Source: Lineus longissimus (taxonomy: Eukaryota; Nemertea; Pilidiophora; Heteronemertea; Lineidae). From it: a DNA stretch of 64,000 bases. The notes beneath the pieces were generated by a model, which worked only from the letters and a program-made list of their open reading frames with translations, ran no database searches and was not told the origin of the DNA. Every line of letters starts with the position of its first letter. Position 1 is the stretch's first letter. A program made the translations under genes and the position numbers. Positions 3,433 through 57,148 of the stretch are shown here, one piece after another. The DNA lies in contig NC_088309.1 of the NCBI RefSeq assembly GCF_910592395.1, forward strand, positions 1,304,501-1,368,500. The letters are read 5' to 3'.

Positions 3433-6400
3433 CTGAAATTATCAAAGAAATTGGGTTACTATAGAAAAGAATAGCTCCATTTGTCAGCAAAAATACGGCC
3501 ATCGTGCTCCGATCCTTACTGTATCAAACTCCTCTTACGGGCTCTCTGTTAGAAACGGATAATTGTGCAAACTGTACTCCCAGGTCTGATATCCCGATAG
3601 GAGTCTTGAATGGTTTAGTGTCGTACACATGTACAGATGTACATCATTTGACAATCTGAACGTGTTTCTCGTAATACCTGGTTAAGATCTGGTTTGGAGG
3701 CACTCAAGTTGTGTATCATAAGTGTAACGAAACATTTGTTATCAGTGACAATATTTGTAAAGGCTGTAGTAAGTAGAGCTGAAAACGTGTTAAGATGTCA
3801 ATATATTAAAACCCTCATCTGGCCGAAATTACAGTCTGTTATTTGTCTGATTTATTTTGATATAACATTGACAATACAATTTCATCACTTTTTAATAGTG
3901 CTGTCGGAAACTGCATTGTATATTCAAAACCAAATTACCTGATTAGCTTTAAACTATCATGTACTAAAAACGATCCTTAATCATTAAAGTGCACTTTAGA
4001 TACAAAGATGATTAATTGCAGAACTTATAAATAATGATGGTGGGAGTGGGATTAAAGTAACGAAGACACGGGCGAAGCAAAGTTTGGATAGGAGTCGGGC
4101 AATCTTGAAATAACATACGTTTAGTATAGAATAAATGTAAAGGGCATGTACTGCAACAGCAATAACTGAATGGTGCATGATAGACTGGATTATGGTTTAG
4201 AAATGCTTTTCCACGCGACTTCAGTTAGTCATAGCAAGCGTTGAGAGAGAGGATGCCATTGCGAACAACTCGGCTCTTGATCAATTAACATCCTTGCCAC
4301 GTTTTCATTAGAGGTTCCGTTTAAGAACGACGATATTCTATGTGGTTTCATGAGCGTATTCCTTTATAAAGAATCAGCTGTTGTATGATCCTGCTAAAAT
4401 TAAGTGAGGGAGTGGTGCGATCGTTCAAGACTATAAATGGGTCCAGATCATGAGATGCGGGTGGGGCTGCGTCTATTCATGGGGTAACAGTTTAACAAAC
4501 GTAATGAACATGTTTTTCTTTCCTCTTGTTTGCATCGTGCAAGCATGAACAATTTAACACGCATGCGGTGATGCGAGGCGAGAAACACATCAATTCAAGA
4601 AACCTGGTATAAATGTAGTTTGAACACGTGCATTAATTCCTAAAACAATGTGATCAGGTACCTACTTGCTACCAACTAGGTATAGCGATAGGCCCTCGGT
4701 GCCACTCTTTGTTCGGGTAATGATAAACTCGGACATGGAAGCGCTTGCCCGACTCAACACCAGAGTCGTCTTTCACTTTGATGAGAGTTTTAAAGAAGTA
4801 AGCTTAACGTTTCTCGAAATGTGAATAAAAATTAATCGTAGTTTTGATGAATGTTGAGTGTACTATTCCTTTGGAGAAGGTGATTAAGAAGAATTGAATG
4901 ATATACGGTTTATTTCTCCACAAACGCAAATTCGTCTGATGAATCGTTATGGCGGCGTTATTAAAACACACATGTATATCAAAGGACACCATCCATTAGA
5001 GGTGTGGACCAGTGGGGCAAAAATCAGAAAAGATTTTTCAGAAAAACAAAAAGGAAGCTTAGGTTGTATCTGTATTGTTCACTTTATACTTTTATTCATC
5101 TTGATCTGTCTGCAGGAAGCACTTAACGATTTTGCCTCTGCAATCAAAAGCTTCATATGGCGTACAACTTCGTATCGCTAAAGGTTTGTGTGAACATATT
5201 GTGCAGTGTCCTTTATGAATATATTTCAGCACAGCATTCTGACAGCGAAGCCAAACAGCACAGATGAGATTTTGAAAAGCTTACCATCCGACTATAATCA
5301 TTCTAAAGACTAAATAGATAATCACAATTTTCAGTCACAAACACTTTGCAAAGTATTCAGGTCCAGTATGATCATGCTTGTGAACATCAGGTCGGATACT
5401 TACATGCACCTGTTCGAGACCCAAGCGTGGTTTCAAAGAAAAAAATTCACTGAATTATGCTGAACATTTTGTGCATTCCTTGTCGCAACGCATGGCGATT
5501 CTCCCAGCCGTTCAGACTATTTGACTCTGAAGGCGTATCTCAACAGCCGTTCAACACCGAGCATCATCATGAAATCTCGTGGTTATTTCACTTCGGTTCC
5601 CCACAATATCGACGAGTGCAAGATACACGACTCTAGATGCTTATGTGGAAATTGGCCGTCTATTATCCTTGACAAAGAGGCTTCAACCTCACTCTCATGT
5701 TTTTAAACCAGATTATGGAGAAAAATACCTACCCAATGGTGCCTCTGTTGGACAAGCGCCGTGATTGCAATCCCGTTTAATCGAAGGTTTCTCGGAATTA
5801 TCGCAACTTGTGCTAGGTTTTCTGTCTATTGTCAGACATCTCACCTCACGGCTCACATAACCAACGCCACACGTTCGAGAACACTGCAAATAAAGGATTA
5901 GCCATTGGTAAGCACTTGTGGGCGGTTCGAGTATATATCCCAACAGCAAGATGTCACCATGTCAATGGCTTATGAAAAATGTTTGTGTTGATTAGTTTTC
6001 TTTAGAACATAAAAATCTATTGCCCAGTCGTGAAATATTTCTATGAACCATTCAAGGAACTGTGACTTCTATGCCATCCCGGTATAAGCTTTATAAGTTT
6101 TATTTGTTTGAGACCTCATAGTATCGACTCGAAAGTTTTTCCCCTACCTCAGACCATGCTGACATGTACCACTCTGAACTGCATTCTTTCCTCTCGCATG
6201 ATCTGTCGGTTTCAGGTTTGTCAGCAGCGGGGCATTCATCCTCGCGGGCGATTTGGACCGACTGGCCATATTTCCTCATGCACATCACGTCACGTTTCTG
6301 TGTGCTGTCCTCTCCACACGTGTTTGAACACTATAAGCAAGAAACATTGACGTTATCAAGGAGAATATGGTACATCGGTAGGGAGCCGCTGTCAGGACTG

Positions 6401-9400
6401 GTGTAGCGGTCAAGAGGTCCCGGGTTCGATCCCCACTGTCGGCGTGAGACTGTAGGCAGGTCTCTCTGTCTTACTTGCCTCTCTGCACCCAGGTGTATAA
6501 ATGGGTATCGGTCAGAAATGCACAGATTGTAGCGCTGGTTGAGCAGCTCATCTGTGGTCTACTGAAAAGTTTCAGGACAGACTGGGGTTAAAGTGTAAAG
6601 TCGGATGATAACCTATATCGTAGTTGATATCAGACTATAAACCCTAAACTTTAACTTTAACATCGATATCCACGTCAGCGCTAATTACGCCTAATTACGC
6701 CTAATTACGCCTATGAGGAGTTGCTTTATGCAAATACGTCCAATATTGGAGCCCAAGTCCAAACATAGAGAGGACGAAGAAGAAATGTCAACATATAACA
6801 CTTAGGAAAATATTGCAAAACGTTCATTGGGGAAAATTCGGCCAATACATTTTTTTCTTCTTAAAATGTGTTTTCCAGGTTTTGTTCTTGACAGTCTGTA
6901 AACGATGTTGGATATGTCCCACCGGTATCCTCAACCAAAGTGAAACATACAACTCCTTGAAACCTCCAATACTGCCTATGTTTTCAGAGGAGTACAGCAG
7001 ACAGATGATCGAAAGGGCGTGGGTTCGTGGCTGTGCGGCTCTGTACTCTCTCTGGCTTGACATAATGGCTAAGTTGAGCGCAATATGTGTGTTTCTTGGT
7101 GTCAAATATAAGGGTTCCTGCATAAACTGAGAAATAAAAGTAAAGTGCTTTGAGACGTACTGTATAAAAGCGCTATATAATTAGTTGCATTCCATTTCAG
7201 TTACTTTTCACAGGATTTGAAAAAAACAAAAACTAGAAACAAGAGAAAAAGCTGCAAAGTGCGACATAATGGTACCTACTTTACTCCATGGACCCGTGAA
7301 CCACTGGCCCCCACACTGGCTGTTTCCAAAGCAAGCTCTCGTGTCCTGGGGCTTGTGACTTGCATCACAGTTTCCTGTCCCAGCTGCGCAGTAGACCTTT
7401 CTGTTCAGGGTGCCTGAGCCACAATCTGCAGAGCACTGAAGTAAAAACGAGTTTTATCAACTCAGCCTGCGGTTCACATTAGGAGATGCATATTCTTTAC
7501 AATTCCTTCTCACAATACAAATATTACATATTCATGGGTCGTGACGAGAAAAAAACTTGAAGTCGTGCTATTGCTAGAGTTCTTATAACTACCTCCTATC
7601 TCTCATCTGAGTTTCGGTAATGTCCGCACTGAACTTAGCGTAATGTTGGGTCGAATTCATCTCCATGCTGCAGACCAAAGCCCACATATGGAATGGTTGC
7701 CAATACCACAGATTTTCCTCGGATGGATCGAGAGTTCGGCTTTGCCCGATGGTCCGCAACAGGGAAATCGTGACACCTAAGTGCATTTATCGACACTCGT
7801 TAGCGTTCGATTAGCATTCATGTATCACACTGAATGCCTTTCTAGGCAAAGCAGCGTGATGCGGGGTGTGTGAAATGGCAATGTGGCCCTTGTCGTGCAA
7901 GCTAGTAAGATCAGCTTTACCTGATTTGACCACATGGTGAAGAACCATCCTTCAGCGCATGAGCCCTTATCGCATTTCTCCTCTGTGGCAGCTTTCTGGC
8001 CTTCGCAGTTATGTTCGCTCATCTGAAGGTTCTGTCTGTTGACGCAGACCACGTCCCTGCGTCGCTTTCCTTTGCCGCATCTTACTGAACACTAAAAGTA
8101 GAAGGCGCATCATTATCTCTAGTGTAGGCAAACACAATGTATAGTTCAATATGACTCTTGCACTGACAAATCAAAGAATGGCTTCATTGTACTTCATTAA
8201 TTCATAGTTTACCACAAGTATTACCAGAACAGTGTTACCGCAAATAAATTTGTGGCCTCATCCTGTCTTCAACAACACGTTCAAAGGTTGTAAGAGTCCA
8301 AATAGCTCTTATATATGTCAGTCCCAGAGACTATACGTTTTAAAATGTTTTCCATCTCTAGAAGACGATTGTACGTTTCCGCGATGATTAAGACTTGCTC
8401 TCTAAGGTTACCAGTCACGTTGCAAGGCAGAGTACGCCATGCTCCCACCTAAACGTGTAATGAAGATGAAAGGGCACTCGGCCAAAACAGATCCGCACCA
8501 AAATTAGCTCCACGCTTACGACTCCTATTCGGACAGTCGATCATACGTGTTGACTTCAACTCCATACGCCAAGGGCACTAGTACTTACCTGTCCCCAGTC
8601 CCCAACCTTCCACTCAAAACAAGGGTCGTTCTCGCACGTCTTCTGAGATATCGGCCTCTTCTCAATAGGACATCTACTGCCAGAAACAGCAACGGATGAG
8701 ACGGCGGAGTACCTCTGGCGGCAGCTCACTTTCCTGACCTTCTCTCCTTTTCCACACGTCACACTGCAGCTGCTCCAGTCTTCCACCTCCCAGCTAGAAA
8801 ATCAAGCACAGTCTCATATAATCTTCTTTATTTATCCAGCAGGGGCCAGTCTTCATTTTAACATTGGTGCGTCAAATTATACCAGTTCTGGGTCACGTTG
8901 GACTCGCCAGAACTCGTTGTCTAGGGCATGGCTAAGTCGTGGGCATGGGTTCGGCTCCTGGTTGATTAACGTCTTAATTTGATTGAGAGACGTTGGGGTT
9001 TCAGATTTCCTTCTACATTACGTTTTTAATCAAACAGTATTGTTTATTGAGCTAATAATGTCGTAGTTTACGCTCAGCTCTCATAGTTTATATACCTTTG
9101 TACGTTCTTGGTTGTTCAAAAAGGTCTGATATCTGTCTAATACTAACCTTGGCGGACAGGGATTAGCATTGCAAGTAAGGGTTCGAACCGCTGGTTTCGT
9201 ACGCGAGTCGCAGTTATCATTCGTAACAACCGCGAGAGATTGACGAAGTACACATACAATCACCGTTTGCTGTGTCCCTGAAAAAAACAAAACCATCAGT
9301 CATCATCAAAGACAGTACTCATGCACTTACGCTGAACTTCATTCAGCTAAGAGTGACATACATTCAGCTCGTGGGCTTGATGTTGTGGTAATATCGGTAT

Positions 9401-12400
9401 CGGCGTATTAGAGTCATAATAAACTGAAACAGAATCTTGACTCACCTCCTCCACAAGGTGCAGAGCAGTTTGTAAATCTTGAGACTTTCCATTCGTAAGC
9501 AAAATTGGTCCTCGAACTTGAGCCACCGGGGTATTTGCCTGGTTGCACGTACTGATTGCCAGGGTAGTAACCGTTTCTGGAAGGTACCTGCTTTCTGGGG
9601 TCGATCTGGTCCTTTACAAGTCGTACCTGAATATAAGTGATAACACCGATTCCTTAATCAATCTAAGAATGCAGCGTTGTTAGATTAGAGCTTCATTGCT
9701 CTCCATAAATGTGTGACAGTGAGCATTTAAAACGGCCCAGAAACTTCTGAGCGGATATGAGGTCGCATATGAATGAACTGATAGATGGCGAATCGAGCGC
9801 CTGTATGTGTCTCATCCTCTGAAGAACAGTGAAAAATCTGTCGATCACTTTCTCTAAATCATGGCAACCTAAATCAATCTTACCCCGGTACTGCTGCTAC
9901 CACCTTGGGCCTTTGTGTTGGGTCTGTATCCACCTCTTCCTGAATCCGTATTCTGATAGCTTGGATCCACCACTTTTCCTTGGTCGACCCTGCCTTCAAA
10001 GCTGGATGTGCCTGTCCGGGCGCTGTCTGATGGCTCATATTTGACTGGGGTTTTGCTTGAACTGCAAGAAAGGTAAGGTATTACTGACCTTTTGCTAATA
10101 GACTCATGGCGACATAGGAATATTTAGTGCAGCACTTCATTAACAGTCGGTTACAATCAGGAAAACGATAGCCATATACTATAAAGAATTGGACCCTGTA
10201 AGGTCAAGGCGACATGTTTGCTTGTGTTCTTGTGTTTATTGATTCTTCTGTTAAATTTCCGATCACACATTAAGGAACGAATGCTTTCACACCATAATCA
10301 TTATCTCCAAAGGGCGCAGGGACCAACCGAGTCATCCTAATCGAGATCTCAATGAATATGTGTTTTATTGTCACTGGTACACTGAAACAATCATCCTTGT
10401 ACCTCCTCCTCATCATCAGACTCATGATCACGATAATATGATCTTCCCTACCTTATCCTCTCGCAGGGATTGCATTTTGCCAAGTTAAGCAAACGATAAA
10501 CATGTAATTTACTTTTGGTAAGTGTAATATCTCACAACTCACCCTGCTCCCTGTTTCTGGACAGGAATGGTATATTCATACTTTATCCCCGGGTTGCGCT
10601 GCTGGTAGAGTATCTGCAGTTTCACTGGCTCCGTCACCGGGCCCTTGGCCGCAACGTTTTCCTGATAGCCGCTCTTGGGGTTAGTCGGCCGCATGTATTT
10701 GAAGACTGTGCCCGCTGCTGGGTACTCCCCGCTCCAGTCTATTCCCCAGTTACCATTGAAGAGGTACTGCTTGTTACTCGGCGTCTGAAGGGCTGAAATA
10801 ATTTGGGAGTTTCGTTGAGAGCCAAAAAAGGACAAATCATGGGACGAAAAGAAATGTGGCGGGGATCCATAGGCCCTACAGCACATGTCTATTCCGTGGG
10901 TGGGTGACATGTCCAGAACAAGGATTGCTTATGTAGATTTGACATTGACGGGCAAAATTCCCCTATCAAGGCTGTTGTGTGTGAGACTAGTGCGATGACG
11001 TGGCATTGGCAGGGGCAGAGGAACAGACTTTTAGCAGTGCTTCTAGAAGTACGCAAAAGTTTTATAATATCAAGTTATTAAACCATACCATTCGAAACTA
11101 TGATTATTATATTGTTCCTCAAGTGTGCCCACATACCAGACTTACCTAAGTAATTCCTGCTGTAAGCCAACTCGCTGATGTTGATATTGCACGCACCAGC
11201 GGGTATGGTGGCAATGTCATTGTAGCCAAACTTCATGGTAGGCCGGGTGAAGATCCCTGAGATTATTTTACACGTCGTGCTGTCCCCTCCACAGATGCCA
11301 CACTTGTCCTCCACCTTGCTCGAGCCAAGGACACCATCGCAACCAACGCTCTGAAAGACATTAAAAGACAACGTTTGAGATGATATAGGAACAGTCGTTA
11401 TTTTTTTTTGGGGGGGGGGGCTGTTTTGTTTTGTTCCACGGACACTTTACAGAAGGGAGTGATCCCACGACACGGCCAATGTAACTTAGTAATCTGCGTC
11501 CTCCTGGAAAAGGTATCCTCCCTATAGCTTTCACCTGATGATGTTTTGAGGTTTAGAGACTAATGGCCTTAGATAAAATGAAACTGAGTGACATGTTTTG
11601 TTCCACGGACACTTTGCAGTGCAGTCATTATTCACGGAAATATGCGATGGGACCTGGCATAATATAATAGGCCGGGTCTATTTGGCAAGCCGCTCGCCGA
11701 ACAGGCATCTTTTTTTGTCCTGTTTGGAGAGCCGCTTGCCAAACAGCACTAAAAAGCCACCCTGTTCGGCCAGCCGGGCTTGCCAAACAGGTAAAAAATC
11801 TACCCTGTTTGGCGAGCTGGAGACTTTACTTTAATATTAATGAGTTCGGCTCTCCATTCAGGACAAGAAAAAGTCGCTGTTTGGTAAGCCGGGCTTGCCA
11901 AGTAGTCACTTTCAATATAATATCTGTTCATCAGTTTACATAACGACATTGTTGAGGTTTTAACATGTCGTCATATTGAGGATTCTCGAATTCAACTTGG
12001 AATTTCAAACGTTGAACGAATGAACAAGTGGCTTTAATGACAACGTGGTTATCATGTTGTAGGATAACCAACCAGATCACTGAACAAGCATGTCAAGTAT
12101 ATCACACTTGAGATAAATGGCTAATGAGTGATTAGTATTGGATAAGCCAATAATCTTCAATAATCATTTGGCAGGTCAATAACACTATAGAAGACTGATA
12201 TGCCATACATGTACAACATCAAATACAGTCTAAAAAGACTCGCTCATTCAATACTGACAACATCAAATGCATTTTTGGCGACATGTATATGGTGTATCGC
12301 TACAGTTATTCGAAATTTGAGAAAAGCTTGTATGCATTTCGTTCGTACGGGAACAGAATGCCGTAAAGCGCACGAATGCTTGTAGCAGACCTCAGAAAAT

Positions 12401-24400: not shown

Positions 24401-27400
24401 ACTGTACAGCCTGTGACAATCCTTACACAAAATACAATTTAAAGGAGATAGACCTACACTGTTTACAAATTAACTTAAAATACAATGTTTAATCGTCTGG
24501 AATGTCAAAGGAAAAGCTGAATTGTGACGGTATCGTTACTTAAATTAACGAATGATAGGCGGGGATCACCGATTGCCAATACCAAAGGAAATATTATTGT
24601 CAGGCCAAATAAGGAACTGATAGACGTGAAGAAATTTCAAGACCCAAGGCTTTGCCGCCAACCATGTTTCTTTTTGTTGACGATGGAAATGTTGATTAGA
24701 GTTCGAGGATTGAGTGATGCTCTTGATAGCTGTTCCTTAACACCACCTTGAACTCTTCGGAATGCCTAAGCGGTGGGGTTGATGACTTGATAAAGCTCTC
24801 CTTGAAAACGGCCTCCGCGGGCTACTCGCAACCGACCATTTCAACAACCACTTTATTTTCAATCAAAAGTTTTTAAATCCTCAAAACAGCCTGACAAAGG
24901 CAGAATACTTGACAATCGGGAAAGTCCACAGGGACTTCTGTGTAATATTCCGTCAGGTTTCAGTTTAAAACTGTTAACAGATATTCCTAGCTTTGTCTGG
25001 CAAAGCAAATATCTGCTTTATTTGAAACTTTAAACAGCCTTGTGATTGACCGGGTAAAATCCATATTGAGCCCAAATAAAAAAGTTCAGTAAACACCTTT
25101 GGAGTGTTTTGCTATTAGTGATAAACTGAACGTTTCTTCGGTAAGCCTGAAAGATGCCCCCTGAAGGCCAACAGCTGAAGCAACAGTGTCATTCTATTTG
25201 CTATTAACCATTGGCATGCCTGTGGTGATACCATTGCTCGTAAAAGTGCTCTCTTATCTAGTGGTAAAACAATTTTTTCACATTTGGATCAATGTCCCCT
25301 TATTATCCTACATCTATTCTTCAGCCTACTATTAATATGATTACCCTTAAATCAAAGCGAAAACCCTAATTCAAATTCCGGATTCTTTTATCTACCTCTG
25401 TCTACTCACCCTCCCAATATGACTTGTGTTCGAACGCGTTTTACCATGTTCTCCCCTGTTTACAAACCGCTTCAAACCCTATGCTTTTTTCACCAGTGAG
25501 CCAGGATCCAGTTGTTCAAAACAAGTTGGCCAATATAACGTGGCGAACATTTTTGTGTTCAGTTGAGTCTTATTGGACTTAACTGAAAAGATAACGCCAA
25601 GTTGAAGTTTGCTCAAGTTGGTTGCAAAACACCTTTTTGAACAGCCGGGCCCTGGCTACTTCTTAAACGACATCGTCACAGAAATGCTGTGTCAGAGCCG
25701 AGATTTGGGCCTAATAGACATGGGTTGGGTCAGAAACACAAAGTAAAAGTAACGCTAAAGTGTGATTTAAGATATGTATTTTACAACAAACAAACAGTAC
25801 AGTACTAGACAAAACAATATATTCGAAATTAACCATACCCGCACGAAGCATGATCCGGTGACAACAATGCCAAGATAGACCAGCAGACAGCTAATCCAAA
25901 CCATACCCGCACGAAGCATGATCCAGTGACAACAATGCCAAGATAGACCAGCAGACAGCTAATCCAAACCATACCCGCACGAAGCATGATCCGGTGACAA
26001 CAATGCCAAGATAGACCAGCAGACAGCTAATCCAAACCATACCCGCACGAAGCATGATCCAGTGACAACAATGCCAAGATAGACCAGCAGACAGCTAATC
26101 CAAACCATACCCGCACGAAGCATGATCCGGTGACAACAATGCCAAGATAGACCAGCAGACAGCTAATCCAAACCATACCCGCACGAAGCATGATCCAATG
26201 ATAGCAATGCCAAGATAGACCAGCAGACAGCTAATCCAAACCATACCCGCACGAAGCATGATCCAGTGACAACAATGCCAAGATAGACCAGCAGGCAGCT
26301 AATCCAAACCATACCCGCACGAAGCATGATCCAGTGACAACAATGCCAAGATAGACCAGCAGACAGCTAATCCAAACCATACCCGCACGAAGCATGATCC
26401 AGTGACAACAATGCCAAGATAGACCAGCAGACAGCTAATCCAAACCATACCCGCACGAAGCATGATCCAGTGACAACAATGCCAAGATAGACCAGCAGAC
26501 AGCTAATCCAAACCATACCCGCACGGAGCATGATCCAGTGACAACAATGCCAAGATAGACCAGCAGACAGCTAATCCAAACCATCCCCGCACGAAGCGTG
26601 ATCCAGAGGCAGCAATGCCAAGATAGACCAACACAGAACAGGTTCCAAGCGGCCCTACACGCAGTATCAGTAGGTAACTTGTAACCACAACAAGGACTCC
26701 CCAGTCTCCCAGTCAAAGCTCCCTTCGTAGATGACTTGTCGGCCACACGCAGCACCATGCACCACACACTGCTCATAGCCTGAGACTGCCTGTTCCAGCA
26801 TGTACACATGTACACATCAACACAAACAGTCACAAGTCAGTTACATAAGCGCTCAATCGTTTCTAGTACATGTAATGCTCTATTCAACACGCTGAACAAT
26901 GTCACTGATGATTGTTCCTATAACAATACACAGGTGTAAAGCCTAAGCTGGCAAATGGAATGTTACAGTTACATATCACATCTCCAGCATACAGTAACAG
27001 GGATGGTGGCCTATATGATGAGTAAATAGAAACTGTAGAAGCTTCACTGAGAGGATTCTTCAGAGGACAGCTCTAATGAAGACATTAACTTTATATAAAT
27101 TCCTGTAGATGGCGTAGTGAGTAACGTACCTTTTCAGGTCGGTGCGAACTTTGTATTAAACGACATCTTCAGCGGGATCAATTGCTTTGTTTTACATCGT
27201 TTCATAAAGTCTCCATATCGACCGCGTTTGATGCAAATTTACAGCGAAAAATCTGCAAAGGATTTGCTGAAATTGGCCGTCTGGATTCGGGATGGGGCCT
27301 TCGTATAACTAGTCATAATGACAGGTACCCTCATCTCTAGTTACTTAGCTCGGGAGGGGAGATTTCCGGTGTAACGTTTTAAGGTTGTACGTCACACCCC

Positions 27401-33400: not shown

Positions 33401-34609
33401 ACCTATCCTATTCATTAATGGCGGGCATGACTGGTCTGCTCATAAGATGTAACCTTCTCTATTGTTCATTGTCTTTATAACCAACGTCAAACCTAACACA
33501 AAGAAACAAGAATGATGATCGCTGTATATGCCTAGTTCCTTTACGATATCCAGAGGGCAGCATGATTATTGATTGGTATACATGTGTGTTGCAGATTAGC
33601 AATGTCATCCAAAATGAGTACATTGTTCTCCCACAAAGCGCAATGACGTCTCCGATTTTGAATAATCTCGATTTATAGTATTTTCAAAGTTAGGAAGTCA
33701 ATTTGTTACTTGTCCAGCTCAGTCATCGGTCAATTTAGAGCTGGCTAGACAATAATTGTTGGTCCACAATTGATCATTCAGTGGGCTTTTTATTAACACC
33801 GTTCTGGTCGATGAAGATAACGTTTTCGAATGATAACTTCCACGCATGCAGCAATCACACTTAACGTTTAATTTTCTATCAGATTTTTGAATAATTGCCC
33901 GAGATCAAATTGCAGGCGATTTGAACCGCACGCCCTTTGGCTAAGGTTATTCGAAGGTCAATACCTCAGACTCCTCGTTTAATTCAGTTTTAGAAAAATC
34001 GTTCAGCGGCCCAAACACTTGAGCCATTCGGTATCGAATTTCGAATGGTCATGTATTAAGTGTGACGTGATACGTATGAGCCTATTTATATCTAATTTTA
34101 AGATGCACTGAGTTTGAACGATGAGAATATGTCACAAGTAAATTTGGTTAGTGTATCAGCCGAAGTGGTCAGCATCAATAACGTATGTTACTGCTGAGTG
34201 CTTCCGAAACTACACCATAATGAGTCCCATGATATCATTACATAAACTACATACAGTGGAACCTCTGTTAGTGGACACCTCTCTATTAAGGACAACCTCT
34301 CTATTAAGGACAACCTCTCTATTAAGGACAACCTCTCTATTAAGGACACTAGTTTTGGTCCCAAATTGGTTGTTTCCATTCAATTTGACCTCTCTAATCA
34401 GGATACCTCTATTAAGGACAGCACTTGTCAGTCCCGTGGGTGTCCTTAATAGAGAGGTTCTACTGTATATACAGGAGGCGCGTATGTTTTTGCTGTGTTC
34501 TCCTCCGCTTTACATGTAGGCATGCACTTACCTCGGCTATCTGGCAGAGTATCACCAAACATATTAGAATGTTCCACCAGGAAAACCTGAAAGTAGATCG
34601 ATGCACCAT
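3290..34609 (-). CDS. ADAMTSL: ADAMTS-like extracellular matrix protein, complete, 16 exons, 814 aa
   Basis: Exons in coding order: 34609-34532, 29735-29614, 28621-28561, 28460-28361, 27986-27856, 11350-11146, 10792-10543, 10061-9884, 9626-9446, 9277-9148, 8793-8589, 8091-7921, 7435-7280, 6330-6148, 5883-5733, 3432-3290. Every junction has GT-AG ends and the phases match, giving 2445 nt including the stop. Domain order: signal peptide (1-26), TSP1 (about 37-90), cysteine-rich module (88-232), spacer (233-315), Ser/Gly linker (316-375), six TSP1 repeats (about 415-765), PLAC (about 768-814). There is no metalloprotease or disintegrin domain, so it is an ADAMTSL and not an ADAMTS. The 1+6 TSP1 plus PLAC layout is that of the ADAMTSL2/4/6 group; the cysteine-rich module also resembles papilin. 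Family members are secreted, bind fibrillin microfibrils and modulate growth-factor signalling; that role is inferred. The intron of 16.5 kb after the cysteine-rich module is far longer than the rest. Confidence 0.9.
5733..9626 (-). CDS. ADAMTSL: ADAMTS-like exons 9-15: six consecutive TSP1 repeats
   Basis: Seven exons (9626-9446, 9277-9148, 8793-8589, 8091-7921, 7435-7280, 6330-6148, 5883-5733) encode six thrombospondin type 1 repeats. From exon 11 on, introns fall just before the CSxxC core, in phase 0: each exon starts with a core (CSVRCG, CSADCG, CSNTCG, CSRTCG) and ends with the W-containing start of the next repeat (for example WYMSAWSE). Repeat 2 has its core in exon 9 (NCSAPCGG). The regular exon-per-repeat pattern suggests growth by exon duplication. 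Introns are short except 6331-7279, which holds a SINE. Confidence 0.9.
6375..6662 (+). mobile_element. tRNA-derived SINE in intron 14 of the ADAMTS-like gene
   Basis: It has an A-box-like TGGTGTAGCGGTCAAG and B box GGTTCGATCCC, then a body with CACCCAGGTGTATAAATGGG, a conserved central block of the kind seen in marine-invertebrate SINEs. Plus orientation, opposite to the host gene. Three ATTACGCCTA units (6682-6712) lie just after its end. Confidence 0.6.
6682..6712. repeat. Three tandem 10-11 bp units (ATTACGCCTA)
   Basis: TAATTACGCC is repeated three times in direct order next to the SINE 3' end. It may be a target or tail-derived microsatellite. Confidence 0.6.
7141..7190 (+). repeat. 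SINE/LINE-type 3' tail
   Basis: It reads AAAGTGCTTTGAGACG and on to TATAAAAGCGCTATATAA, the same tail layout as the minus-strand copy at 38826-38880. It lies about 90 bp from an ADAMTS-like exon in the intron. Confidence 0.45.
9884..10061 (-). CDS. ADAMTSL: ADAMTS-like exon 8: Ser/Gly/Pro-rich linker after the spacer
   Basis: This exon adds 59 residues rich in Ser, Gly, Thr, Pro and charged residues (start SSKTPVKYEPSD, end AQGGSSSTG) with no cysteine. It lies between the spacer exon and the first of the six C-terminal TSP1 repeats. Phases 2 in and 0 out fit the neighbours. It looks disordered and has no domain I recognise; such linkers differ widely among ADAMTSL paralogues. Confidence 0.75.
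10543..11350 (-). CDS. ADAMTSL: ADAMTS-like exons 6-7: end of cysteine-rich module and spacer
   Basis: Exon 6 (11350-11146) opens with SVGCDGVLGSS and KCGICGGDSTTC, the hallmark GCD..LGS...DKCGxCGGD..TC signature of the ADAMTS/ADAMTSL cysteine-rich to spacer junction. It runs into GFTRP-like and IPAGACNINISE, the start of the spacer beta-sandwich. Exon 7 (10792-10543) continues with YLFNGNW, FKYMRP and ILYQQRNPGIKYEYTIP, typical spacer strands. One potential N-glycosylation site (NIS) is present. Confidence 0.88.
11402..11422. repeat. T9/G12 homopolymer tract
   Basis: A run of T is followed directly by a run of about ten to twelve G. It is a low-complexity tract just upstream of the hairpin cluster in the intron. 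Confidence 0.7.
11675..11905. repeat. Cluster of short related hairpins
   Basis: Four clear modules share arms of the form CTGTTTGGC / GCCAAACAG with GC-rich centres: 11680-11700, 11720-11746 (8-bp perfect arms CTGTTTGG/CCAAACAG), 11761-11791 (arms 9 of 10) and 11878-11903 (TTGGTAAGC/GCTTGCCAA). A further half module lies at 11802-11818. All lie within 230 bp. Confidence 0.65.
18605..18722. mobile_element. 118-bp long inverted repeat (MITE or hairpin locus)
   Basis: The left arm 18605-18641 and right arm 18686-18722 are reverse complements at 34 of 37 positions (start GGGTG, core TATGAATAAA, end AAATGCTTTTACTT). The spacer is 44 bp. The similarity may extend a few bases outward. No open frame and no clear target duplication. 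Confidence 0.6.
21043..21081 (-). CDS. ADAMTSL: Candidate alternative first exon, 13 codons, signal-peptide-like
   Basis: On the minus strand an ATG at 21081 opens MNGISFAVVLCVL, followed directly by a GTGAGT donor in phase 0. A TATAAAA lies about 150 bases upstream. The next ADAMTS-like exon downstream (11350) also starts in phase 0, so splicing would give MNGISFAVVLCVL-SVGCDGVL, a hydrophobic start fused to the spacer and six TSP1 repeats, lacking the N-terminal TSP1 and most of the cysteine-rich module. It could instead be the first exon of a nested gene whose other exons I did not find, or a chance match. Confidence 0.4.
21229..21235 (-). promoter_or_regulatory. TATA box upstream of the internal first exon
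   Basis: The minus strand reads TATAAAA here, placing a start site near 21205 and the candidate ATG about 125 bases into the transcript. An ATG near 21211 opens a short upstream frame that ends before 21081 and might be transcribed if initiation is slightly early. Confidence 0.4.
23601..23621. repeat. Perfect 21-bp palindrome
   Basis: TACTCCACGA, a single central A, then TCGTGGAGTA: arms of ten bases match exactly. It is isolated in intron sequence. Confidence 0.6.
25499..25657. mobile_element. MITE with about 23-bp terminal inverted repeats
   Basis: The left end reads AGCCAGGATCCAGTTG and on to TTCAAAA; the right end is its imperfect reverse complement (TTTTTGAACAGCCG to CCCTGGCT). It is 159 bp with no coding capacity. 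I could not define a target duplication, so the superfamily (hAT-like or other) stays open. Confidence 0.55.
25833..26632. repeat. 68-bp tandem satellite, about 11.8 copies
   Basis: Units start at 25833 and every 68 bp to 26581 (CCATACCCGCACGAAGC...). The first five copies alternate GATCCGG/GATCCAG, suggesting a 136-bp dimer step. Copy 6 carries AATGATAGC, copy 7 a GCAGGC variant, and the last copy is diverged and truncated. Because 68 is not a multiple of three, minus-strand open frames across the array switch frame from copy to copy and are not genes. Confidence 0.95.
27856..28621 (-). CDS. ADAMTSL: ADAMTS-like exons 3-5: cysteine-rich module
   Basis: Exons 28621-28561, 28460-28361 and 27986-27856 encode the end of TSP1-1 (CRGEFNQHMTCNTV, NCPEGS) and then KDFRAVQCEEFN, WEPYL, CELACKATGHDFYARL, DGTSC and VCVDGRCQ. 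These match the FR..QC..FN...W.P.....KC.L.C...G..FY..L...V.DGT.C......VC..G.C pattern of ADAMTS/ADAMTSL/papilin cysteine-rich modules. Phases 2, 0, 1 and 0 chain correctly across the four junctions. Confidence 0.88.
29614..29735 (-). CDS. ADAMTSL: ADAMTS-like exon 2: N-terminal TSP1 repeat
   Basis: It encodes EWGGWTSWTECSRTCGIGVSAR and on to KCETIQR. The W-x-x-W motif is a potential C-mannosylation site, and the CSRTCG core is a potential O-fucosylation site in this repeat family. Phase 0 in, phase 2 out. Confidence 0.88.
29736..34531. other. ADAMTSL: 4.8 kb first intron of the ADAMTS-like gene
   Basis: I see no exon. It holds a G11-12 tract near 30043-30054 and a MITE at 34254-34465, close to the first exon. 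Moderately GC-rich unique patches around 32.8-33.4 kb could be regulatory, but nothing specific supports that. Confidence 0.5.
34254..34465. mobile_element. Tc1/mariner-type (pogo/Tigger-like) MITE with internal 18-bp repeats
   Basis: The ends are inverted (CAGTGGAACCTCTG at left, GAGAGGTTCTACTG at right) and flanked by TA (34252-34253, 34466-34467), as expected for Tc1/mariner-superfamily insertions. An 18-bp unit ACCTCTCTATTAAGGACA is repeated four times at 34277-34348; the unit copies the terminal-repeat sequence itself. It ends 66 bp from the donor of the ADAMTS-like first exon. Confidence 0.7.
34532..34609 (-). CDS. ADAMTSL: ADAMTS-like exon 1: start codon and signal peptide
   Basis: ATG at 34609 opens MVHRSTFRF followed by the hydrophobic WWNILICLVILCQIAE, a classic signal peptide, ending at a GTAAGT donor in phase 0. 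The next exon (29735) starts in phase 0. It is too short and spliced to appear as a standalone open frame. Confidence 0.8.
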
Positions 34610-47806: not shown

Positions 47807-50800
47807 TCATTCTCGAAGCGGTTGCTTTTCCAATTTTCCCTCATCGTACTTTGAGAGCGTTGCCTCGATCACCTCCTTGGAGAGGCTTATTTCCTGCTGG
47901 ACATTCTTCCACTGCTCCGGGAGGTTGAGGCACAGGAGCATTGGGTACCGGGGCTCCTTTATTCCGATGAAATCAAAAAGAGAGTGCAAGACATCTTCGG
48001 CGTCCTAAAAGAAAAAAAACCGCTGACTTAACGGTCATCAACAGTCTAGAACACATCAGAGAGGTAGCCAGTTGTAGACTTCCTCTGCCACCTGTGGCTG
48101 AATTTACTACTACTCTGTGAGCTTATTTGCCTCGGCTAAGCTCGACGAGCTTGTTGTTGATTCACCCAGGTGATTCCCCAGCATAATTAGCTTACTTTAC
48201 GGTATCGGCGGGTTAGTCGTTAATTTTGCCCCTCATAGAGAAATCTCCGCACTCCGTGGTGGCATTTCTAACGACAAACCTTTCTCTCCATGGTGGCAAG
48301 ATCAAAACAGCCCCTTTACAACTTCACCTGAGATGTCACATACTAATTACTTACACAGTGTCCCTGAGGTGAGAAGTAATTGTACCTGGCTATGTGTGAT
48401 AACACAGTCGTTGCGAGTGATACATGTATTACACAGACCTGCAATGGGGCCCTGTCAGCAAGCTTGCGATTCTGATTTGCAGGTAGTGGTCAATCATCGC
48501 AGTTTACTGTATATCGAGATGTCACATGCCCTGTACGATTCATGTCGGCAAAGTCGAACCTGACGCATGCGTTGTCACAATGTTAATAGTCGAATCCTAC
48601 CCGTCATTGTTGCTGATTTATACTTACATCGGCAGATCCGTAGAAGAACGATGGTGCCCCCTCCTTATTGAAGTATCTCTCGGCCGTACCTTGCATTGCC
48701 TCTCTCAGCTCATCCTCCGTCTCAATATCTGAAATGGAAACAAATTACAAATACCTTATAATGTCTTGAGCGATAAGTGATTTGACTAGAATACAGGTGT
48801 TGAAGGATATCGAGTCTCCTGGAAACATTATCGAGGAATTTTAAAGTCCTCTGCACAGAATGTATATGTTATCGTCCAATGTTGGTCACCATCTTCGTCA
48901 CTTTCTGAGACCGAAGAATGATCGATTATTTTGTAGGGCGAGGCAAAAATGCATTCCTTGATGTCTAATAATTACTTGGCAGTGCAAAAATGACAATCCC
49001 AATCATTGGAAAATTTTTGCAGCAAGTCACTTATTGTTGATATCGACATCAAAGTCAAATATTTTCGTAAATATATAAAAAAACTTAATTCAAGCTCAAG
49101 AATAAACTCTAACCTTCTTCTTGTCCGATTAGTAACACGCAGAGGTCATCATTCAATGCCTCGAATGTGTCGCCTCCTAATTTGCTCAAAGGTTTAGGTA
49201 ACCAAGGAAATTCCTAGAAAAGTAAAAAAGGGGTAAAGACATCGGTAATCTGTAAACACGTCTCTCACCAATCACATTCACTCCCCGCCATATGATTATT
49301 TCCATCTGAACAGGAAACACTACCCATAACTGGAAGCATGTTTATCTCTCGAGTATGGGATGTACAGCATACGCTGGTATGTCTGACAGAGTCAAGAGCT
49401 AACGCACATGACCTTGACGATGACTCCGAGTTGAGACGATCACCTTGACCATATCCGTGACCATATAACCTTGACCTTGACCTTGAGCGTAATCGTAAAC
49501 ATGACCATGACCTACCTTTCCATCTGGGTCTTCTTCCACTGCCCTCCGCGCATTCTGCGTTAACAGTTGGTCATTTTCGTCTAAGAGAATCAGCATAGGG
49601 ATTCCTGGAACGGGGGGGAAAATCGTGTATGTTTGTAAAGGTCATGCTCGACCACACTTTGTGAAACCACAGTTGCAATAATCGAATGCTTGAATTTTAG
49701 GTCTACCCGAACAGTCTTAATTAGACAACCAAAAAGACCAACAGTGAGGTATCAATGTCTATTCTAAAAGGGCTCATAATGAACACTGGCCATTAAAGTT
49801 TAACCAAGCGGTTTTTGTTTGCGACACCGAGCCTTGATTAGACAACCAATCACTGCTAGCTCTGTATCAGTTATGTAACAGAGGAAAAACATCAAGGTCC
49901 AACCGGGGATTGAACCCGGGACCTATCGCTTATAAGGCCATCACTCTACCGACTGAGCTAAAGGGAATTTCCCTCTAGCCTGGGCCATGATGCCACCACT
50001 ACATACTCCCCCTGTTCGGGAAAGTTGTGTCCTCACAACCAGGTTCTTCCGTGATACAAAGGGTTAATTCATTATCCAAAGACACACCAGCATCTAAACA
50101 AATTATTAGTACCCTTTTACCACGTTGGGCGCCAAATGTAACAGAGGAAAAACATCAAGGTCCAACCGGGGATTGAACCCGGGACCTCTCGCTTATAAGG
50201 CCATCACTCTACCGACTGAGCTAAAGGGAATTTCCCCTCTAGCCTGGGCTAGTAGGAATGATGCCACCACTACAGTTACTTAAACATCGCAATCACTCAG
50301 ACTATTGTCGCTGTCTTCAATACCTACCATCAATTTCAAATAACAACTCTAGTTTCTTCTTTGTCTGGCTCTCCAAGGGCAAAGCGAGCCAAGGCATGGT
50401 TTCCAAATGATCTTGAAATGAGTCCACATCTTTGTCGGATGATATGAACACAATCTCAAACTTCTTACCATCATCTCGGAGTTTGTTGTACGTTTCCACG
50501 AGGTGTGGGGTGAACGTTCGACATGGCGGACACTGCGTGAGAGCGTGAAACTATTATCGTAAGCTCATTAATTAAAAGAAAGAAAACCTGAACTGCAACG
50601 TTACATGCATTTTGATATTGGTTCTGCACAAGCAGCCGTATGATAGTTCTCCCGTGAGCGTCTCAGAAGAGGTCGTTAGCGCCCGAGACACACCGAGATT
50701 AAATTGGCCATCTGCTGAAAATAAAGTTTTGCACTTTTTTCAGTTTTGGAGGGCTGCACGGGCAGTTGTCCATGTGCCTACTGTTAACTATGACTGGACC

Positions 50801-51726
50801 TACCCAATGGGCCGAAAAATACAGGCCTTTAACCTTTCCGTCTAGGGCCTCGGTAGCGTCGAACTCCTCCTTTTTGCTGTTGACAAGTTTCGTCCCACAC
50901 ATGACCTCCGTGAAGTTCAGCGTGGCCCACGGATAGTCATCACCCTCCGGATCGCTCTTGACGATCGATCTCCCCTGCTTAGTAATCACCTCCCCGGACT
51001 CGCCATCTAAAAACACCAGCGTTGGAATGCCTCTCACTTTGTACTTCTGCGATAGCTTTTCCTAAAATTCGAGCGGCAGATAAAGAGATGTTCATATTCG
51101 ATGCATTGCCACAACGCATCGCAGAACTGGAGATGCCCGGTGTAAAAAAAGTGAAATTTGTTTGCTACGGTATCACCCTAAAGGGCCAGCCAGATTGGCT
51201 GGAGACACTCTTTATTCCTAAACTCCAATCTTCGATGCCAAGTGCCTGGCAATGCCTTGCAAGAAGACAGTTTGTACCCTATTTTAAACTATCTGGCGGC
51301 TACACGTTACCAACGGAACTTACGGGCTCGAACCTTCGGCCTTCCGTTCTTTAAATCGCCACCCGGGAGTCGTCTTCGAAACAGAAGAATGGTATAAACA
51401 TTTTACAGACAGATAAGAGTAATCCTTACCTTTCTACTGTCCCCGTGAGGAATGGCCAACCATGGCATCTCACTCCAATAGTCGTCAAAAGCTGGCCCAT
51501 CTTTATCCGAACTCAGGAACACTATTTCAAGCCGCTTGTCCTCCTGTAGCTTCAAATTCTCGTAAAACTTGACCAAAGTCGGGGTAAATATTCGGCACGG
51601 TCCGCACCAGTGGGCAGAGAAGTAAAGCCCGACCACTTTCCCTTTCCCAGCGAAGGATTCCACCGGGACGGGCTCTTCTCCCTTGCCCATGACGGACTCG
51701 CCCAATAGTTGTTGAAGAGCAGACAT
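47807..51726 (-). CDS. NXN: Nucleoredoxin, complete, 7 exons, 415 aa
   Basis: Exons in coding order: 51726-51430, 51061-50804, 50532-50328, 49604-49516, 49213-49114, 48728-48628, 48004-47807. All are GT-AG, phases match and the total is 1248 nt with stop. Domain 1 has the redox motif WCGPC (residues 40-44) and the cis-Pro segment VRGIPTLVFLD. Domain 2 has WCPPC (185-189) and GIPMLILLD. A C-terminal thioredoxin-like part follows (FFYGSAD near 343-349). Nucleoredoxin is a cytosolic/nuclear thioredoxin-family oxidoreductase that in vertebrates binds Dishevelled and restrains Wnt signalling; here the role is inferred. Length is close to human NXN (435 aa). The intron after residue 185 splits Trp from CPPC. 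Repeated FSAHW and SSDKD segments in both domains show internal duplication. A miniature LTR element sits in the intron 49605-50327. Confidence 0.92.
49874..50003 (-). repeat. TRIM 3' LTR (minus orientation)
   Basis: This copy is 130 bp. It lacks 8 bp (TAGTAGGA region) present in the other LTR. It holds a tRNA-like segment on the minus strand at about 49895-49965. Confidence 0.75.
50137..50274 (-). repeat. TRIM 5' LTR (minus orientation)
   Basis: This copy is 138 bp and precedes the tRNA-Lys-type primer binding site. It lies 53 bp inside the intron from the donor of the nucleoredoxin exon at 50328-50532. Confidence 0.75.
50159..50229 (-). other. tRNA-like Pol III module inside the LTR (also at 49895-49965)
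   Basis: The minus strand reads TAGCTCAGTCGGTAGAG (A box and D arm), an anticodon-like arm with loop CTTATAA (anticodon UAU, Ile-like), and GGTTCAATCCC (B box) with a fully paired T arm CCGGG/CCCGG. The acceptor ends do not pair, so it is not a functional tRNA gene. A T5 run about ten bases downstream could end Pol III transcription. Both LTRs carry it; the other copy has one change in the anticodon stem. Confidence 0.7.
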
Positions 51727-52136
51727 ATTGATAGCAGTTTCCTCGCTTCCCTCTAGATCCTCCTGTCAAATCTGACCCGTACGCTTCACGATATGTCTGA
51801 TTTCGTAACCAATCGATACTTGACTTATGAAGCTGTTCTGTTGGGAATACTTATATAACCTCAGCTAACTATCTACAGTATTTATTTACAGACATGATGG
51901 CTCGTCATTGGGCAATCGTGGAGGCGTTAATCGAACATGATTTGATTCTCGCCAAACAGTGTTGATGACGTCATGGTACTGGTCATATATTGTCATGTAT
52001 AAACAACAGGGTCATAATAACGTTCTATTAGCACATTAGAAACTGGACATTAACAACAAGACATGCACATAGCTCATGGTACTATGGTTAAGATGACGTA
52101 TCTTCGTATAGACAATGCATTCAATCATGTCCATTT

Positions 52137-52689: not shown

Positions 52690-54827
52690 TCATGGATACT
52701 TATCCTCTATCTCTTCAGATGTTTCTTCGTCCTCCACATCCCCAAGCAGATTATCTTTTCTGTCATTCCGTATCATCTCCCTCGTCTGCAAAGTCACCAG
52801 ACTGACAAATATCACCAACAGGACAATGTTCATGGCTATTGTAAAATAGATGTAAACATGCGTCGACTTTACCATGAGAAAAGTTACCAAAGCTGCGCAT
52901 GATGAATATCCAACGACAGCCGCTGTAAAGAGAGTGAAGATGCGAACATCTGTCAGGATGAAGCATTCTTTCGCCCACTCCAAGCATGCTGGAAGAATAG
53001 GAGCAAGTCCTAGCGCCATTAGAGAACAACCTATCCACATGTAAGTTATGTCTGTGTTCGAATAAGGCAACACGGCGGATGACGAGTTACAGAACAAAAC
53101 GCTCATAAAGAGGATTTTCTGAGACTTGAAATGACGTCTCGCAAGTGAATATAATGCTCTACTCGCTATAAAGATGATCCAGAATACTATCGAAACATCT
53201 GATGCTGAATTCTCGTCTGTTTCAATTGGATTAAGCGTAACATACACCGGGAGTAAGTTACCAAAGAAGTTATGGCTACTGCTCGAAATTAAAATGAACA
53301 AGAAAATCAAAGTGATGTATATGTATACCGGCCGCTTCCGTTCTCGAAATATCTCGCGTGAGTATACGGCAGCGTCATCTTTTTCTTCGGTAGATGCGTT
53401 GATGTCAGAGGTCACAAGGTTCATGATGAAAAACATAGCGGCGGTGATCAGCATCAAGGCAGAAGCTATGCAGAAACTAATGTATATTGCATTTGGGCTT
53501 TTGGCTGTCGGTGGGACTTGCGTGGTTGCGTTGGGAATAGCATGGGCCAAGGAGCCGAATAAAGAAGAGAATTTGGTCAAGGGGGTAGGCTTTAAAGACA
53601 TAGACGTGTTTGCCAATGCTGTAGCATTTGAAGTCGGCGTCGAGTTGACGAGTGATGTCGGGTTTATAGTAGTCGAAATGGTTGTCACGTTTGAGTCTAG
53701 AAGCCTCAATCTGGGCAGGAAATCTTTTTCGCGTTGAGTAAATGGCCGTGCGATTGATGGTGCCAAAGCATATCCTACTGCCGTGACTGCTAAGAGCCCT
53801 TCCATTGCATTTTGACCGGCAACTCCCCATAGGTCTATGACCATTATAACTGCTCCTGGAATAGATTTACAAAAAAACCATTGGTATAAACTTATACGTT
53901 GTAACATCTGTGAGTAGCGCATTATAAGAATTCTTGGAGGCGGAAGTGTTTTATGTTGAAAAAAATTCTTAATATTGACAGTTCCAGAATCCCGAATTGC
54001 GATCGGTTTTGCAGGTATATTCTGAGAGAAAATCTAATGTGGCAAACGGGGGGCCAGTAACAGTTTGAATTAATGTTCCTCCACCACATTGCGTCGACAC
54101 AGTGTGGCCTATATTGCGGTGATGAGTCATTTTATTACTCATCAAAAAAGCACGTATCTTTTTTGAAGGGTAAGCTAATACACTTATTTACCGCCGATTA
54201 GTCGAAGTCAAGAGAAAGAGAGTATATGTACATAAGTATGTCGTCTTTAGTACCCATGATGACTTTCAAGAATGAGCCCTTACCTGTATGACTGAATCCT
54301 AAACAGAAACCTTGGAGGAGAAATGCAGTGGTAGTCAAAGGCAGCATGTGACTTAGCCCGCATCCGAGTGTGCATAAGGCACAAACGAAATACGATAATC
54401 CACACAGAACTCTGTTGCTGAACTTGAGATATAACCGACGAGATATCAGTGATCCGAAGAGGTAGCCGAAATTCTGAGCTAGGACTATGACAGAAGTGAC
54501 GTGCAGACTGATGGAATTCTGGGAAGCGAGACCGAACAGACATGGTCCTATTATGAATTGAGCAAGACCCTGAAAAGAATGTAGAAGCATCTCAATCAAA
54601 ACTACTTTAACAACCAGAGAAGGGAATGGTAGTTTTATGTAGAAATATACAGGCATGAAATTAGATCAGAGGTAATGTATGTTGCTGGGCTTAGAAGGAA
54701 GAAATGAGAAAGCAACGAATGTGCAAGTTGAGTTTTACTGTTCAGTCCAACATCTTACCGTTGTTAAGCCACCGAGATAGACGATAGCTGTCTCAATGTA
54801 CTTAAATCTAGGATCTGAGCGCCCCAT
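52690..54827 (-). CDS. MFSD4: NaGLT1/MFSD4-like major facilitator transporter, 3 exons, 506 aa
   Basis: Exons: 54827-54759 (23 codons, MGRSDPRFKY then IETAIVYLGGLTT), 54569-54284, and 53855-52690. Phases 0 and 1 match, total 1521 nt with stop. The N-terminal half has TM segments around GLAQFIIGPCLFGLASQ, VIVLAQNFGYLFGSLISRRL, GLSYFVCALCTLGCGLSH and a DLWG motif in VIMVIDLWG, the arrangement of MFSD4/NaGLT1 proteins. A large Ser/Thr/Asn-rich loop (about residues 170-240, several NxT/NxS sites) precedes six C-terminal TM segments and an acidic cytoplasmic tail ending EEIEDKYP. Family members move sugars or other small solutes; the substrate here is unknown. The length is close to human MFSD4A (about 514 aa). 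The first exon is tiny and easily missed. Confidence 0.82.
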
Positions 54828-56167
54828 CTCCACCAGTCTTTGCAACAACTTCTCGTCAAACTTTCATAGCCATCAGACTAGGACGACATGATATTCCCTT
54901 ACAACCAAAGTGCTACAACGATACCTTTCTAGTAATCTAAAAATCAATGAGAATTGTGTGCATACAGTATTGACCAATGACTACGTAGAGTACTACCAGC
55001 TGCTCCCATGGATAGCCATCAGTTATTGATATACGATTGATTGGTAATGTTACCTCATCTACAAGGAAGGAAAACAGAGGTCGCTTAAAAAGCTCTAAAA
55101 TTAATTAGACCCCTTCCGCTCCAAAATAGATGAAAATAATGCAATCCTAAATATACTTAGTCGAAGTAAATCACAAAAATAACTTGTTCAGCAGATAAAA
55201 ATCAATCGCCAGCCAGGTTATTAAAATAGTTGATACAGAAGAGAGGACGTTTGAAGTATTGTATATAAAACTGCATCAAAAATAGAAATGATGATCTGCA
55301 GGGCATCGTATAATAACTCGACGCTGACAGACATGTGCCAGTCAACATCTCACACGCTCATGGATGGCCAACTTAAAGATAACCTAAAGCAGGTCATACA
55401 TAGCACTTTGAGCTGGCGTCTCCGAATTCAAGTGAAATTCTCAAATATCTACATCGTCTCGATCCACCTTATCGACTTACGACACGCGGAGGAGAAACTC
55501 GTCTCGCAAGCTGCCGCCGGACCAGGTATCGCATTCTTATCGGGGAGAACTTCGCCATTGAGAACCACATAAAATGCACGTGTGAGTGGTAGTTGTACAA
55601 ATGTAAACCACCAAGTTTAAGTGAGCGTTTCTTTCGCGCGGTCCACGCGACAATTGAAAGGCGTGGAAATGTTTCGGTTAACAGTAGATCTCTGAAATAG
55701 CTCTCCATCATCCTTTGAAACGCGGTCGTATGTTAATCCTTCCCATATTATGCCGTGCGACTGAGGTGAAGGAATTATTTCATTCTTGCCTTTATTATGT
55801 AGACAGATGTGTTCCCCTCTACCTTTATGTGTTAAACTCTTGATATTGCCCCACATACGCTGGTGTCTAGTTAATTGGGCTGTGGGTCATTTGATCGCCC
55901 CATCATTCAGATGCAGATGCATGCCTATTTCACTTTGACCAGACATACCCCGTCACAGCTTTGACAAACGCAAGAAGATACATGAACTTCGTAGTAGTGA
56001 AGGAAATGCGGTTTATAGTCGTGTGCTAACTGCAAGAAACACCTAAGTGATGGTATTAAATTGATGCAGAGTCAAGTAGGTATAGTATTTGTATGATAGT
56101 TAAGAAGAAGGGAACGAATTGGTATGCCAATTGTTTATCATAACAGGGGTCGATACAAATCGAGAAA
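54828..56167. other. Divergent intergenic region, MFSD4-like / GPCR
   Basis: 1.3 kb between the start codons of two genes on opposite strands. I see no coding signal and no clear TATA box. Short open frames at 55288-55856 have no support. Confidence 0.5.
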
Positions 56168-57148
56168 ATGAATGATTCAGTCATAAGTTGGCGGACCTTT
56201 GGCGATGATGATCAGATGACTGACTTGCTAAAGCGCATCACATCTGTCCTGAGTCAGCAAGTCCCTCTCGGTCTGATGGTGGTGGGCGTTACTGGCAACA
56301 TTCTCTCCTTTGTCTTACTCTCGCAAACTCAGTACAGATCGTCTTCTACCTGCCTCTACATGAGGGCACTGGCAGTATCTGATTCATGTTATCTAATTTT
56401 TAAAATCGGAAGAACAGTGGCCATTATTTTATTTGATAGTTTGGTCCAATCGTTTATCTTCTGCTCAGGGATGTTTGCCGTTGTTCATACCTTCGCCTCG
56501 GTGTCATCGATCCTCCTCGCCGCGATGTCTCTTGATCGACTCATCGCGGTTGCTGTTCCTTTAAAAGCGAAGATTTTGTGCAGCATTCGTAGAGCCAGAA
56601 TCACCATCTTTGCATCTCTCGTTGTAAACATTCTGATATACACGACTGTGAACTTCTTTAGACAACGTCGAAGTTACACAAAGATTACTCAGTCATGTTT
56701 GTACGCACTCCCTGGCAATCTTGGTTCCTACTATGCCCATTTAAGACTCATTGCTGTGTATTACATTCCACTTGGAATAATGTTTGTAGCCAATGTTGGT
56801 ATCATTTGCGTGATATTGAGACGTCAAGGTAAAACGTCAAAACTCCATCAACAAGACGACTCTGGTAAGAAAAGCAAAGATGGTTACATCACGGTCATGT
56901 TGCTGACGGTATCAATAAGTTCGTTTGTATTTCTGTTCCCCAATAAAGCTATGAATATTTACTACAGCAGCGTGAGGGGGAAACTGGACCCTCGATCAAT
57001 TGTTCTAAGAGATATGATATCTTCAGTTACGACTCTTCTTCTCTATTGCAATTATGGCATGAACTTTTACGCGTACACGCTACCGATAGCGAAATTCCGC
57101 ACAGAATTACTTGGTCTGTTCTGCCTTGTCTGTACAAGAAGGAAATGA
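56168..57148 (+). CDS. Class A (rhodopsin-like) GPCR, single exon, 326 aa
   Basis: Seven hydrophobic segments are visible: TM1 with the GN motif (VTGNILSFVLL), TM2 with LAVSD, TM3 ending SLDRLIAVAVP (DRL in place of DRY), TM4 near ITIFASLVVNILIYTT, TM5 with the YYIPLGIMF proline, TM6 near VMLLTVSISSFVFLFP, and TM7 NYGMNFYAYTLPIAKF (N-x3-NFYxY in place of NPxxY). A Cys at the start of TM3 and one in ECL2 (TQSCLY) can form the usual disulphide. N-terminal NDS is a potential glycosylation site. The form is that of intronless invertebrate peptide/FMRFamide-type or orphan receptors; the ligand is unknown. A basic C-terminus with Cys (CLVCTRRK) could be palmitoylated. Confidence 0.85.
   Translation: MNDSVISWRTFGDDDQMTDLLKRITSVLSQQVPLGLMVVGVTGNILSFVLLSQTQYRSSSTCLYMRALAVSDSCYLIFKIGRTVAIILFDSLVQSFIFCSGMFAVVHTFASVSSILLAAMSLDRLIAVAVPLKAKILCSIRRARITIFASLVVNILIYTTVNFFRQRRSYTKITQSCLYALPGNLGSYYAHLRLIAVYYIPLGIMFVANVGIICVILRRQGKTSKLHQQDDSGKKSKDGYITVMLLTVSISSFVFLFPNKAMNIYYSSVRGKLDPRSIVLRDMISSVTTLLLYCNYGMNFYAYTLPIAKFRTELLGLFCLVCTRRK

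Follow-up and report, generated by a model that had tools for sequence, protein, structure and literature searches.

What kind of mobile element carries a tRNA-like sequence inside each of its terminal repeats, and is such a design new? Both questions are raised by a 401-bp sequence of Lineus longissimus, a heteronemertean, which occupies positions 49874-50274 on the minus strand of the 64-kb stretch analysed here (64,000 nucleotides of contig NC_088309.1, hereafter the window). The sequence is a complete, non-autonomous miniature retrotransposon with long terminal repeats (LTRs), that is, a terminal-repeat retrotransposon in miniature (TRIM). A preliminary description had recognized this anatomy, which our analysis bears out, and had proposed an RNA polymerase III (Pol III) unit within each LTR. 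The design itself proved to be published already under the name Helenus, or "TRIMp3" (Kojima 2024; PMC10886601).

Element anatomy and tRNA-like segments

A repeat search of the window returned a near-identical pair of direct repeats (49873-49973 and 50136-50236, 99% identity). The LTRs delimited by this search and by alignment, and trimmed to their TG...CA ends, measure 138 bp on the 5' side (50137-50274) and 130 bp on the 3' side (49874-50003), both on the minus strand, as are all internal features given below. Between them lies a core of 133 bp (50004-50136), which begins with TT followed by a primer binding site (PBS), TGGCGCCCAACGTGG, at 50120-50134, 2 nt past the 5' LTR, and which finishes with CAGGGGGAGTA at 50004-50014, a purine run (AGGGGGAG) and then TA, adjoining the 3' LTR directly as the polypurine tract (PPT) region. 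The target site duplication GTTA stands at 49870-49873 and again at 50275-50278, and is exactly 4 bp long because the adjoining base differs on each side. The defining parts of a TRIM, namely two short LTRs, a short core, a PBS and a PPT, are therefore all in place, in the correct order and on one strand. While a 4-bp flank match alone would arise by chance about once in 256 by simple arithmetic, its occurrence together with the PBS, the PPT and the matched TG...CA ends means that chance is no serious rival.

The 15 nt of the PBS are complementary to a tRNA 3' end: by the table in PMC1084362 they are identical to the first 15 nt of the PBS for tRNA-Lys1,2, TGGCGCCCAACGTGGGGC, in agreement with the tRNA-Lys type named in the preliminary description. 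The human foamy virus PBS is given as TGGCGCCCAACGTGGGG in a passage of PMC3386198.

The Rfam tRNA model (RF00005, gathering score 29) matches both LTRs on the strand of the element, with 36.4 bits in the 5' LTR (50166-50223) and 41.0 bits in the 3' LTR (49903-49960). These were the only two Rfam matches at gathering threshold in the window; weak matches below threshold, among them tfoR at 27.7 bits where 70 are required, were taken as chance. The match spans positions 8-63 of the 71 in the model, leaving positions 1-7 and 64-71, both strands of the acceptor stem, unmatched, and in the Rfam alignment the anticodon arm contains one non-standard pair in the 3' LTR and two in the 5' LTR. ARAGORN, run at its bacterial-code setting, called no tRNA gene anywhere in the window. 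The window has two occurrences of a 32-nt tRNA-like core, and two matches were reached in none of 100 shuffles. A 109-nt LTR stretch folds with a z-score of -1.97, with 7 of 200 shuffles equally or more stable.

Each LTR also contains an A box, TAGCTCAGTCG (50213-50223 in the 5' LTR; 49950-49960 in the 3' LTR), a B box, GTTCAATCC (50170-50178 and 49907-49915), and a run of five T residues (T5) that is a candidate Pol III terminator (50148-50152 and 49885-49889), at identical spacing in the two LTRs. Box A holds TRGCY (as TAGCT) and YGG (as CGG), and box B, with its preceding G, holds GGTTC, so that the published Helenus motifs appear as TAGCTCAGTCGG and GGTTCAATCC in both LTRs. A simple motif count across the window, made without a shuffle control, found the A-box motif 98 times and the B-box motif 6 times, with three A/B pairs at 35-60 nt, two of which belong to the element and the third of which lies at 6423. 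The Pol III-type unit of the preliminary description thus stands as far as the A box, the B box, the T5 run and the RF00005 match are concerned, with the qualification that the acceptor stem is unmatched and the anticodon arm mispaired. Because the acceptor stem is unmatched, we infer that the segment would be a retained promoter, a relic, rather than a retained tRNA or tRNA gene. Ranked against a set of 11 cellular tRNAs, the segment scored 27 for Lys-TTT, 25 for Lys-CTT and 24 for both Phe and Ala; as Phe and Ala score close and the ranking had no shuffle control, a Lys source is only a leaning.

Relation to Helenus, Cassandra and Ajax

The preliminary description had taken a tRNA-bearing animal counterpart of the plant element Cassandra to be a possible novelty, a suggestion that fails in light of Kojima 2024 (PMC10886601), the only paper on TRIMs with tRNA-like LTR segments among those listed in our literature searches. 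Helenus is described there from two nemerteans, L. longissimus and Notospermus geniculatus. The former is listed as a host in both the text and Table 1 and is one of six genomes used for copy estimates, although the Results text states a copy figure for this species for Ajax-1_LiLo alone. Box A with TRGCY and YGG in most families and box B with GGTTC are the motifs of the group, the two boxes are conserved across its families, and its length range as a whole is 311-1263 bp. Animal members have 4-bp duplications, are primed by the 3' ends of tRNAs in those groups for which details are given, with tRNA-Lys among the primers of wasp, vertebrate and bivalve members, and are linked to Gypsy elements through PBS similarity; the primer type of nemertean members is absent from the Results text. 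Consensus sequences are deposited in the supplements and in Repbase (PMC10886601).

The element shares with animal Helenus a 4-bp duplication (GTTA on both sides, with a differing next base), a length of 401 bp, inside the published range, a tRNA-Lys-type PBS, a tRNA-like segment within the LTRs that exceeds the Rfam gathering score, and the host species. No difference emerged among the features that could be compared, the likeness being to the published description and not to a consensus sequence. Judged by these sequence features, 49874-50274 is almost certainly a Helenus-type TRIM, whichever polymerase transcribes it. As the Helenus design fits and L. longissimus is a listed host, the element probably belongs to a published L. 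longissimus family or lies near one. What is already known is that this type of element exists and that it occurs in L. longissimus, a statement that does not extend to identity with a named family. We think it improbable that the copy belongs to a Helenus family beyond those published for this species; were it so, the layout would imply a split set by Pol III read-through, in which tRNA-like RNAs of ~90 nt predominate and full-length templates are few. One LTR stretch each, scanned for exact matches in viral and prokaryote contig collections, gave 0 matches, a result that may exclude records of the species' own genome and that carries little weight for an animal element.

Two other TRIMs with small-RNA promoters inside their LTRs invite comparison. 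Cassandra, a plant TRIM with a 5S rRNA-derived Pol III promoter in its LTRs according to the summary in PMC10886601, is to that extent an apt parallel, as the preliminary description had suggested, but its promoter derives from 5S rRNA while that of the element is tRNA-like. No 5S match was found in the window at the Rfam gathering threshold, nor at E up to 1 within 49800-50350, and the label Cassandra was rejected, since at gathering threshold the LTRs match only tRNA in Rfam. Ajax has L. longissimus among its hosts and carries part of 5S rRNA, a 5-bp duplication and a tRNA-Leu primer in an element of 421 or 434 bp (PMC10886601). It thus resembles the element in being a nemertean TRIM of similar length with a small-RNA promoter inside its LTRs, but differs in each of the other three features, which here are tRNA-like, 4 bp and Lys-type. 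The lack of a 5S match and the 4-bp rather than 5-bp duplication led us to reject this label also.

Candidate transcription and mobilization, and the alternatives

For Helenus, Kojima's reading of Pol III promotion inside the LTR combined with gypsy-type mobilization in trans is the likeliest. Applied to this locus, the full explanation, which we favor with fair but not full confidence, is that of a Helenus-type TRIM, most likely of one of the families reported from L. longissimus, that would be transcribed by Pol III and mobilized in trans by a helper of Ty3/gypsy type. It builds on what is observed, namely the anatomy, the 4-bp duplication, the primer site and the tRNA-like segment, and adds Pol III transcription, the transcript ends, the helper and mobility as its conjectural part. 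Transcription would start within the 5' LTR, a short distance ahead of its A box, and a portion of the transcripts would pass the first T5 run and terminate at the T5 of the 3' LTR. The usual Pol III start site precedes the A box by 10-18 nt. With such a start, the predicted RNA would be about 345-357 nt long and its repeated end (R) about 86-94 nt; the T5 run, which is 11 nt from the end of the LTR, would leave a very short unique 5' region (U5) and make R roughly 90 nt long. The helper would provide Gag, reverse transcriptase and integrase, tRNA-Lys would prime at the PBS, the second strand would be primed from the polypurine tract, and integration would yield the 4-bp duplication.

Several observations weigh against this explanation. 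The T5 run is also present in the 5' LTR, ahead of the PBS, so that full-length RNA needs read-through, and an efficient terminator would stop most transcripts. Folded alone, the 78-nt tRNA-like segments do not exceed shuffled sequences in stability (z -0.51 and -0.11). The R of ~90 nt predicted here is unlike the terminal duplication of Cassandra RNA, which measures 18 bp according to PMC10886601. No second copy was found in the rest of the window, where BLAST with pieces of the element gave, apart from weaker hits, only a B-box-like stretch of 22 nt at 6413-6434 (E 1.5e-4). Lastly, alignment of the LTRs of this copy over 130 columns shows two substitutions (Jukes-Cantor 0.0155), besides two gaps, of 7 nt and 1 nt, and the copy is therefore not fresh.

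The tRNA-like segments could in principle be working tRNA genes lying between repeats, as Rfam scores above the gathering score might suggest, or the two repeats could be independent tRNA-derived short interspersed element (SINE) insertions that flank 133 bp by chance. We give the former next to no credence, in view of the unmatched acceptor stem and mispaired anticodon arm, the empty ARAGORN result and folds no better than shuffles. The latter, which the preliminary description had named as one outcome that would overturn its proposal, can draw on the existence of tandem SINE arrangements in animal genomes and on further B-box-like stretches at window positions 6423, 9180/9189 and 51334. It is nonetheless exceedingly improbable, being contradicted by the single GTTA duplication around the pair and by the PBS and polypurine tract where the core meets the LTRs; the repeats also match over their length, including the non-tRNA ends with their TG start and CA end.

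A more substantial rival concerns the polymerase: a Helenus-type TRIM transcribed by RNA polymerase II (Pol II), whose tRNA-like segment would be a passenger of no present role, left by an old SINE insertion into an LTR. In its favor are the T5 run upstream of the PBS, an awkward position for Pol III, and the statement in Kojima 2024 that the Pol III function of Helenus lacks experimental validation (PMC10886601). Set against it are the A and B boxes, which match consensus in both LTRs and are conserved across Helenus families (PMC10886601). Nor is TTATAA a special sign of a Pol II promoter: the suggestion of the preliminary description that it might double as a TATA box finds no support and was rejected, because the Rfam tRNA consensus reads CUUAUAA at the same anticodon-loop positions. 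On balance we consider Pol II transcription unlikely, though clearly less so than the other two rivals, and retain Pol III transcription of a Helenus-type TRIM as the preferred explanation.

Surroundings of the element and wider meaning

Just outside the element are two 20-nt direct repeats (49713-49732 and 49830-49849) that are 90% alike and share TTAGACAACCAA. Elsewhere in the window, the plus-strand stretch 6348-6482 holds a B-box-like GGTTCGATCC at 6423 in the context AAGAGGTCCCGGGTTCGATCCCC, preceded at 55 nt by a sequence that loosely fits the A box, and is possibly a worn tRNA-derived SINE; a search of 6200-6700 against Rfam at E up to 1 gave one sub-threshold match and no tRNA. A further B-box-like sequence, GGTTCGAGCC, occurs at 51334 on the minus strand near thioredoxin-domain exons, with no A box within 30-65 nt upstream. 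Two tandem repeats are also present, an array at 25831-26630 with a 68-bp unit in 11.8 copies (97% matches) and an 18-bp repeat at 34273-34348 in 4.3 copies (98% matches), the latter open on both strands with repeated peptides.

Among the protein-coding sequences, a domain search identified ADAMTS parts at 11078-11446 and 10539-10928, and a Thioredoxin_8 domain lies at 51403-51765, for which the nearest solved chains are tryparedoxins; we take its product to be nucleoredoxin-like. A rhodopsin-type G protein-coupled receptor is encoded at 56144-57148, where 36 of 6278 candidates in the protein search passed E <= 0.001; the search recovered the receptor's own entry, at 100% identity over 98% of the query, together with further L. 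longissimus proteins. For 52690-54033, the protein search gave none at E <= 0.001 among 7999 scored candidates, and the search of solved structures gave 0 matches at E up to 0.1.

The outcome for the locus is confirmation of a published element type. Its bearing extends to genome annotation, where Helenus-like elements are a source of tRNA-like sequences and can inflate predicted tRNA gene counts, as reported for rust fungi (PMC10886601). Helenus is also a test case of whether Pol III transcripts can serve as templates for LTR retrotransposons in animals.
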